Shown: positions 60,821-62,660 of the stretch, piece by piece
How positions within the stretch are numbered: the stretch's first letter is position 1
Layout of the letters: every line of letters starts with the position of its first letter
Assembly: GCF_947648125.1 (NCBI RefSeq)
Contig: NZ_CANSMR010000026.1
Location: forward strand, 33,604 to 97,603
From: an uncultured Bradyrhizobium sp.
GTDB taxonomy: Bacteria; Pseudomonadota; Alphaproteobacteria; Rhizobiales; Xanthobacteraceae
Length of the DNA stretch: 64,000 nucleotides
Reading direction: 5' to 3'
Notes under the pieces: model-generated
Seen by the model: the letters and a program-made list of their open reading frames with translations, nothing else
Told to the model about the DNA's origin: nothing
Database searches by the model: none
Program-made: the position numbers and the translations under genes

Positions 60821-61004
60821 CGATGTCACCGGCTGGGAAAGGGGGATCAAGGTCCATCCTGCATACACCAGGGCGACACCGGGCAACAACGGGGGTGCCC
60901 TGTTAGACCAATTGAGCTTCGGCAGGTTCAGTCCTCGCCGCTATGATCGGCGGGTGATTCGCGGGGCAGGGGTGCCGGCGGATCGATCACGCCCGGAGGG
61001 ACCC

Positions 61005-62660
61005 ATGTGGAGTTTTCTCGAGCGGCTGTTGGATTCGTCGACGTTTTCGCCGCACGGCATCTGCCTGTTGTGGGAGCCGGAGCTGATCTGGCTCCACGTG
61101 ATTTCAGACGCGATCATCGCCGCTTCGTATTTCTCGATTCCGTTTGCGCTGGCGATCCTCGTCTCCAAGCGGCGCGACTTCCAGTTCGGCTGGATGGCCT
61201 GGCCGTTCGCCGCGTTCATCCTCGCCTGCGGCCTCACGCATGTGTTTTCGATCTACACGCTATGGGTGCCGATCTACGGCCTCGAAGGAATAGTCAAGGC
61301 GCTGACCGCAATCGCCTCGATCTTCACCGCGGTGCTGCTCTGGCCGCTGATCCCGAAAATCCTGGCGATCCCGACCGAGCGACAGCTGCGCGAGGCGCAT
61401 GTCGCGCTCGCCGAGGAAGGACGGCAGCGCCAGCGCTCGGAAGTCCTGCTCGAGCGTTTCCGCGAGGCCGAGGCCAATGAGAGCAGGATCCGCCAGGCGC
61501 AGAAGATGGAAGCGGTGGGCCAGCTCACCGGCGGCATCGCGCACGACTTCAACAACATCCTCACCGTCATCACCGGTACCATCGACATCCTGGCCGAGGC
61601 GGTCACCCAAAACCGCCAGCTGGTCGAAATCACCTCGCTGATCCGCGATGCCGCCGAGCGCGGTGCATCGCTGACGCGGCATCTGCTTGCCTTCGCGCGC
61701 AAGCAGCCGTTGCAGCCGAGCGATGTCGACGTCAATGCGTTGATGGTCGACACCATCGAGCTGCTGCGGTCGACCATCGGCGACCATGTCGATATCGATT
61801 TTCGCTCCGCACCCGATCTGCCGCGCGCGCTGGTCGATTCCAACCAGCTGGTCACCGCGATCATCAATCTCGCGCTGAACGCGCGCGACGCGATGCCGAA
61901 GGGTGGCAAGCTGCGGATCGAGACCCGCACCGCCGAACTGAAGCCATCAGACGTGCACGCCCATGACGGGCTTGCCGCCGGCGACTATGTCGCGATCGCG
62001 CTGATCGACAACGGCCAGGGCATCGCGGAAGCCGATCTCGCCAAAGTATTCGAGCCGTTCTTCACCACCAAGGACGTCGGCAAGGGTACGGGCCTCGGGC
62101 TTTCCATGGTCTACGGCTTCGTCAAGCAGTCCAACGGCCACATCGCGCTCGACAGCGAGGTCGGCCGCGGCACCAGGGTGATGCTCTATCTGCCGCGCGC
62201 GGCGGTGCTTTCGCCGGCCGCGGCGCCGGAACGGCGGCAGCCGGAAATGCGCGGCGCGCAGGAGATCGTGCTCGTGGTCGAGGACGACAGACTGGTGCGC
62301 TCCTACGTGCTGACCCAGATCGAGAGCCTCGGCTACACGACGTTGTCGGCCAACAATGGCGGCGAGGCGCTTGCCGTGCTCGACAGCGGCGCGCCGGTCG
62401 ATCTGTTGTTTACCGACGTCATCATGCCCGGTGCGATGAACGGACGCGACCTCGCCACCGAGGCCGCGCGGCGGCGCCCCGGCCTGCGCGTGCTGTTCAC
62501 CTCGGGCTACACCGATGACGCCATCGACCAGGACGGCAAGCTCGAGCAGGGCATCCTGTTCCTGGCAAAACCCTACAGCCGCGCCGAGCTCGCCCGCATG
62601 CTGCGGATCGCGCTGCATGAGGGCGAAAGGCAGTTCGCGCAGCAGGAGCCGGCGGAGTAG
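61005..62660 (+). CDS. Hybrid histidine kinase with ethylene-receptor-like transmembrane sensor domain
   Basis: 551 residues from the ATG at 61005 (GGAGGG upstream; the longer open frame is not coding). Three N-terminal helices (~27-52, 63-83, 91-115) match the plant ETR1 ethylene-binding domain: [20 protein letters not shown] and [13 protein letters not shown]. With a constant +10 offset, Asp35, Tyr42, Ile45, Pro46, Ile72, Cys75 and His79 correspond to ETR1 residues Asp25, Tyr32, Ile35, Pro36, Ile62, Cys65 and His69; Cys and His are the copper ligands. No GAF domain follows. A coiled linker leads to HisKA (His180 in [11 protein letters not shown]), a HATPase with [17 protein letters not shown] and GTGLGLSMV, and a C-terminal receiver with Asp471 ([10 protein letters not shown]). 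Confidence 0.88.

Follow-up and report, generated by a model that had tools for sequence, protein, structure and literature searches.

The gene at positions 61005..62660 (+ strand) of the window, by which we mean the whole stretch of 64,000 nucleotides analysed here, raises the question of whether a Bradyrhizobium carries a receptor for ethylene. It encodes a hybrid histidine kinase of 551 aa, as judged from its open reading frame and Pfam matches, and a GGAGG ribosome-binding-like site, read by eye, lies 5 nt 5' of the ATG at 61005 (60995..60999, + strand). A first-pass annotation of the same DNA had predicted a kinase able to sense ethylene, and this prediction is supported by seven kept pocket residues, a low sensor omega and strong conservation. 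We put the probability that the gene encodes a bacterial ethylene receptor, with ethylene binding predicted from its sequence, at about 0.82.

The N-terminal sensor (residues 26-122; 61080..61370, + strand) was delimited by Pfam, hydropathy and AlphaFold2, and matches the ethylene-binding-type family ETR1_N over model positions 1-97 of 97, with 127.8 bits against a cut-off of 27 (E 2e-37). With E values up to 1 allowed, Pfam matches the domain to no other family, so that the profile search places the sensor in the ethylene-receptor family, as the first-pass annotation had it; the domain extends to residue 122 (nt 61370), beyond the end at 61350 given there. Against NCBIfam the sensor alone gave only a far sub-threshold match to SecDF (E 0.042, 12.2 bits against a cut-off of 1171), and a PDB sequence search with it returned nothing at E up to 10. 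An AlphaFold2 model, computed from an alignment of 44 sensors (43 of the 80 named loci described below and the window sensor), has helices at residues 25-55, 62-87 and 93-120 at low confidence (mean pLDDT 66.4), and is consistent with a three-helix membrane domain without proving it.

Alignment with Arabidopsis ETR1 places Asp35 (61107..61109), Tyr42, Ile45 and Pro46 (within Tyr42-Phe-Ser-Ile45-Pro46, 61128..61142) and Ile72, Cys75 and His79 (within 61218..61241, all on the + strand) opposite ETR1 D25, Y32, I35, P36, I62, C65 and H69, with the constant shift of +10 that had been claimed; Cys75 and His79 are the predicted Cu(I) ligands. Here we take Y32 to be a pocket position. The window sensor shares 42 of 111 residues with ETR1 (score 159, against a maximum of 54 in 1000 shuffles of residues 19-128), and the shuffle test together with the Pfam score excludes a chance likeness. 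The alignment had been described as gapless, which holds from TM1 to His79 but not ahead of TM1, where there is a 6-residue gap, nor between TM2 and TM3, where a 3-residue gap shifts the conserved lysine by +7, from K91 to Lys98 (61296..61298, + strand), the proposed partner of Asp35. The signalling residues T94, S98 and P110 of ETR1 align with T101, S105 and P117; among 11 diverse domains S105 and P117 are invariant and K98 is not, being missing from two short HisKA_2-type domains. The ETR1 numbers D25, I35, P36, I62, C65 and H69 come from PMC6586836 and PMC12643061, the first of which also describes the signalling roles of T94, S98 and P110, and PMC6682694 and PMC11819568 state that the seven residues are required for ethylene binding to ETR1.

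Behind the sensor, the protein consists of HisKA (residues 172-234; 61518..61706) with the phospho-acceptor His180 in GGIAHDFNN, HATPase_c (residues 278-399; 61836..62201) with its N, G1, F and G2 boxes, and a C-terminal receiver (Response_reg, residues 422-533; 62268..62603) with the phospho-acceptor Asp471 and Lys522, all on the + strand and assigned by Pfam and motifs, so that the catalytic motifs of kinase and receiver are all present. Neither GAF nor PAS was found between sensor and HisKA at E up to 1, and the architecture described in the first pass, with HisKA directly behind the sensor, no GAF and a terminal receiver, was recovered. The other Pfam matches in the protein, HPTransfase and Peripla_BP_1, fall under their own cut-offs, and none of the best 25 of 127 NCBIfam matches is above its cut-off. 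The kinase-receiver half resembles PRK13557 and the cell-cycle kinase CckA; an identity as CckA was rejected, since the protein reaches 351.7 bits against an equivalog cut-off of 1000 and the likeness is limited to that half. Upstream, on the opposite strand, lies an SLT_2 transglycosylase gene, and downstream a Peptidase_M48 gene. Among the typed neighbours there is no response regulator gene, the receiver being built in instead, no evident ethylene-forming gene, and no copper-handling gene (0/5). A promoter scan gave one site (60919-60947; 9/12 matches, against 0.2 expected), and Rfam gave nothing above the gathering score within the window.

How widely is this sensor kept? Bradyrhizobium sp. 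C9 has a sensor that matches the window's at every position (100%), and 17 further loci, including B. embrapense, B. pachyrhizi, B. tropiciagri and B. viridifuturi, reach 91-98% identity; every site residue is kept in all 18 named loci with a sensor identity of at least 91%. A scan of named genomes, from which the best 80 of 435 confirmed stretches were kept, gave Bradyrhizobium throughout except for one Frankia, one Tardiphaga MAG and one Bradyrhizobiaceae MAG; DYIPICH and the lysine were read in all 80, a result to some extent built into the scan, since the Y-SIP motif is contained in one of its two patterns. At E up to 0.001, and in overlapping samples that include the window's own genome, ETR1_N was found in 43/60 genus genomes, in 40/198 of the family sample, in 64/397 of the order sample (55 above the cut-off) and in 29/398 of the phylum sample (28 above), with no match in the 14 control genomes. 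The own genome holds one match, and also an ACC deaminase gene (G000:C14:68040-69044). That the host is a plant-associated alphaproteobacterium, as first annotated, fits its being a Bradyrhizobium, but this genome has no match to nodA or NodA.

The 60 genus genomes contain 49 ETR1_N open reading frames, 36 with all seven residues and 13 without; the intact form occurs alone in 30 genomes, the altered form alone in 7 and the two together in 6, so that an intact homologue is present in 36/60. With this spread, and with a functional Azospirillum receptor published in 2025 (PMC11819568), the novelty is lower than the first-pass annotation had implied. The literature searched gave no report on a Bradyrhizobium receptor; since its coverage of subscription papers was limited, we do not claim that such a receptor is unreported.

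The intact forms fall into four groups. A single representative of each of B, C, D and the altered class was scanned with Pfam, and the remaining proteins were placed by their length and their position in the kinase tree. Group A is the window type and has no PAS (5 genomes); group B (19 genomes, ~660 aa) has a PAS in the member scanned; group C (10 genomes) has none in the member scanned; and group D (2 genomes) has a PAS and no receiver in the member scanned, with two regulators downstream. One group C member, L047 (genome G037), keeps the pocket in an ORF of 357 aa in which, by eye, the ATPase region between HisKA and receiver is missing, and might therefore act without kinase activity of its own. 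In L065 and L067 an ETR1_N-PAS-kinase is followed by a single-domain regulator and a FixJ-like regulator, an arrangement closely resembling the AzoEtr1 gene pair of Azospirillum, and in L065 the regulator start overlaps the kinase stop. With neighbour genes called crudely (ORFs of at least 90 aa, codon-position G+C), each of groups A, B and C was mostly found at a chromosomal site of its own, with neighbours of its own. Exceptions are L033 and L057, whose neighbours are unshared, a flavin-oxidoreductase family (F16) that occurs close to A as well as to D, and the altered class, which is scattered over several places. A conserved operon partner was sought for the window gene and not found, regulators lying behind only the small PAS group of L065 and L067. 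Links to nodulation were likewise not borne out: with four weak partial NodA matches excluded and relatedness ignored, full-length nodA was found in 17/36 genomes with an intact receptor vs 15/24 without (p 0.30), and in 8/13 with the altered class vs 24/47 without it (p 0.55). ACC deaminase, matched in 54/60 genus genomes (52 above cut-off) and in 6/14 controls (none above), is so common in the genus as to be uninformative for association.

Selection on the sensor was compared with that on the kinase and receiver by median pairwise omega, computed with our own Nei-Gojobori script; the pairs are non-independent and the differences are descriptive. Sensor omega was lower in group A (0.061 vs 0.157, 10 pairs), in group B (0.090 vs 0.176) and, narrowly, in group C (0.116 vs 0.145), which argues for a working sensor. 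In the altered class the order is reversed (0.309 vs 0.134).

This altered class is the freshest part of the finding. Its 13 genus members read D-F-T-A-(V/A/L)-C-R at the seven positions, so that the copper-ligand histidine is lost and the kinase is kept; L079 has Ala instead of Cys, and L080 is a fragment. Asp35 and Lys98 are kept in L068-L080, L146, L147 and L239. Another genus genome, G594, has three ETR1_N kinases (L236, L237, L238), all altered (DFIAVCR, GFIASSR and ESMAAGC). In a quick sensor tree on 105 columns, with the site columns omitted and many forks unresolved, the 13 genus ORFs, three further rows of the same pattern and the three rows of G594 form one clade (SH-aLRT 100), nested in a clade of 68 rows whose other 49 are intact (SH-aLRT 95), and from this nesting we read the altered class as a secondary loss of the pocket. 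Between 15 altered and 34 intact rows, 14 columns are fixed differently at ≥90%. An enrichment of site positions among the columns changed in the altered class was considered and not upheld (5/7 vs 29/70, p 0.10, not significant), and the argument therefore rests on the identity of the changes.

In a kinase-half tree, which is quick, holds 45 rows of only such kinases as bear an ETR1_N-type sensor, and has long branches flagged, group A pairs with the altered class (SH-aLRT 95); the window kinase and receiver have a median identity of 58.8% to that class vs ~45% to groups B and C. Groups A and B share 80% of the sensor vs 45% of the kinase, hinting at a sensor swap. For A and the altered class a swap is not claimed, because the sensor tree is compatible both with a clade of A and the altered class (p-AU 0.41) and with a clade that joins A, B and C (p-AU 0.54). 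It is conceivable, at not quite even odds, that a single ethylene receptor gave rise to a pair in Bradyrhizobium: an intact form and a sister that keeps kinase, receiver, Asp35 and Lys98, but in which Arg stands for the copper-ligand His and three pocket residues are consistently F, T and A. By its residues the sister has lost the pocket; its new function might be that of a sensor of another signal or of an ethylene-blind partner. If so, the genus would offer a natural series of pocket losses in which to study how the ligand of an ethylene receptor changes.

Departures from the pocket are also frequent in the wider family. Here 159 rows were read, including one duplicate (L275 of L148) and AzoEtr1 itself, with 2 family-sample, 9 order-sample and 2 phylum-sample matches left out, as well as L150 (no match) and L263 (another protein type, by eye). 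All seven residues are present in 89/158 distinct domains and at least one is missing in 69. Of these, 16 have the altered pattern, 13 retain both Cys and His but are changed elsewhere in the site, and the remaining 40 are without one or both; Cys or His is missing at the aligned positions in 56/158, the most divergent rows being aligned with little certainty. The fold can therefore do something else, and since pocket-less ETR1_N kinases exist, it is the residues, and not a profile match alone, that show an ethylene receptor. Short proteins (~200-230 aa) of the same bacterial family, L102, L104-L108 and L274, have ETR1_N with all seven residues; in the two that were scanned, a phospho-acceptor stretch of HisKA_2 type follows, and an ATPase domain was not recognised at E up to 0.1. 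Such proteins are possible phosphotransfer-only receptors. Kinases of the order with weak ETR1_N matches and few site residues (L244-L248, L250-L262) are signs of a broader three-helix sensor family that may bind other ligands.

For the window protein itself we infer copper and ethylene binding, a direction of signalling, a downstream partner and a role at the root. The three-helix inner-membrane domain would bind Cu(I) through Cys75 and His79, the latter kept in place by Asp35, which would also pair with Lys98. Ethylene, dissolving into the membrane, would bind the copper, and the change would travel via helix 3 (Ser105, Pro117) and the short linker to the dimerisation and phospho-acceptor helices, altering autophosphorylation of His180 and then transfer to Asp471 of the built-in receiver, from which the signal could pass to a phosphotransfer protein or regulator. 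By analogy, ethylene most likely lowers receptor output, because ethylene and receptor loss both cut biofilm formation in the host of AzoEtr1.

The same residues could serve a membrane Cu(I) sensor that binds copper at C75 and H79 and naturally responds to the amount of copper present, or to a different gas that binds copper, such as CO. A ligand role alone explains the conservation of C75 and H79, ETR1 is made more rigid by Cu(I) itself according to PMC12643061, and no ethylene-forming gene is evident among the typed neighbours. However, Y42, I45, P46 and I72, which are not ligands but without which ETR1 does not bind ethylene, vary no more than the ligands do across the 44 aligned sequences, none of the five typed neighbours handles copper, and the closest tested homologue binds ethylene in a host that responds to 100 ppb (PMC11819568), so that we consider a copper sensor improbable. 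Still less probable, to the point of being a slim chance, is an ethylene-receptor fold moved to another ligand, as the altered class seems to have, with the pocket kept by descent only. The frequent pocket departures in the family (16 in the F-T-A pattern) and a kinase module nearest the altered class are compatible with it; against it, sensor omega is 0.31 where the pocket is lost but 0.06-0.09 in the window group, and the 18 closest named loci are all intact.

An ethylene receptor remains the preferred reading, and within it the source of the gas may vary. That the ethylene comes mainly from other soil microbes, the receptor then serving microbial competition and not the host plant, is rather unlikely. 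The own genome has the plant-ethylene-lowering enzyme ACC deaminase, yet so do most genomes of the genus, and several of the nearest named relatives are legume isolates. The lack of a nodA match in the own genome speaks for a microbial source, a possibility also raised by the Azospirillum authors (PMC11819568).

In the abstracts covered, rhizobia are discussed as lowering plant ethylene via ACC deaminase or rhizobitoxine, not as sensing it. With an intact receptor in more than half of the sampled genus genomes, one can test directly whether they sense a hormone whose level they also alter. The altered class is a warning against calling every ETR1_N match an ethylene receptor, and its members, natural kinase-bearing sisters without the copper-ligand histidine, are ready negative controls. 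Bacterial ethylene receptors are already known; what the genus holds in addition is close copies without the pocket.

Among known systems, the closest is AzoEtr1 of A. brasilense Sp7 (L031), the first functional ethylene receptor described in a proteobacterium (PMC11819568), whose sensor is 55.6% identical to that of the window over residues 1-124. Both are N-terminal sensors on a histidine kinase in an alphaproteobacterial host, with D35, Y42, I45, P46, I72, C75, H79 and K98 at identical residue numbers (section 7 of PMC11819568 numbers D35, C75, H79 and K98). AzoEtr1 differs in having PAS and no receiver match, whereas the window protein has its own receiver and no PAS, and a separate response regulator overlaps the AzoEtr1 stop codon (PMC11819568), none being found beside the window gene. 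According to the same study, AzoEtr1 residues 1-130 bind 14C-ethylene, and saturable binding is almost or entirely lost when the gene is disrupted; D35A and C75A did not rescue biofilm formation and were considered non-functional by the authors, with the caveat of two-plasmid expression, whereas comparable plant mutants still signal. Biofilm was reduced by 100 ppb ethylene and by receptor disruption alike, but colony surface and peroxide sensitivity were altered in disruptants and not by ethylene (PMC11819568), so that the match of phenotypes is not complete. Putative receptors occur in many non-pathogenic plant-associated proteobacteria (PMC11819568), and according to a review (PMC7700396) such domains are found, joined to output domains of various kinds, in many proteobacteria and cyanobacteria.

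As described in PMC6682694, SynEtr1 (slr1212, Synechocystis) and GeiEtr1/2 (Geitlerinema) share with the window protein a bacterial ethylene-binding domain, the seven residues being stated for GeiEtr1/2, and an N-terminal stretch of ~30 residues with one cysteine; they differ in the GAF, PAS-GAF or cyanobacteriochrome domains between membrane domain and kinase. Within the genus, group B (e.g. L043, 659 aa) resembles the window protein in a sensor 80% identical (median), all residues kept and a terminal receiver, and differs in the PAS in between, a kinase and receiver only 45% identical and another chromosomal site. The altered class has the same ETR1_N-HisKA-HATPase-REC order without PAS (L068) and the nearest kinase and receiver of the groups compared (59% identical), but carries Y42F, I45T, P46A, I72V/A/L and H79R in a sensor only 46% identical, with a higher omega. 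Plant ETR1 shares the three-helix domain, the seven residues, K91, S98, P110 and a C-terminal receiver; unlike it, the window protein has no GAF and no Cys4/Cys6 pair, with a single Cys20 ahead of TM1, a TM2-TM3 connection 3 residues shorter and a CckA-like bacterial kinase-receiver half. Judged by its sequence, the window protein joins the known bacterial ethylene receptors, in the bacterial subfamily of ETR1_N.
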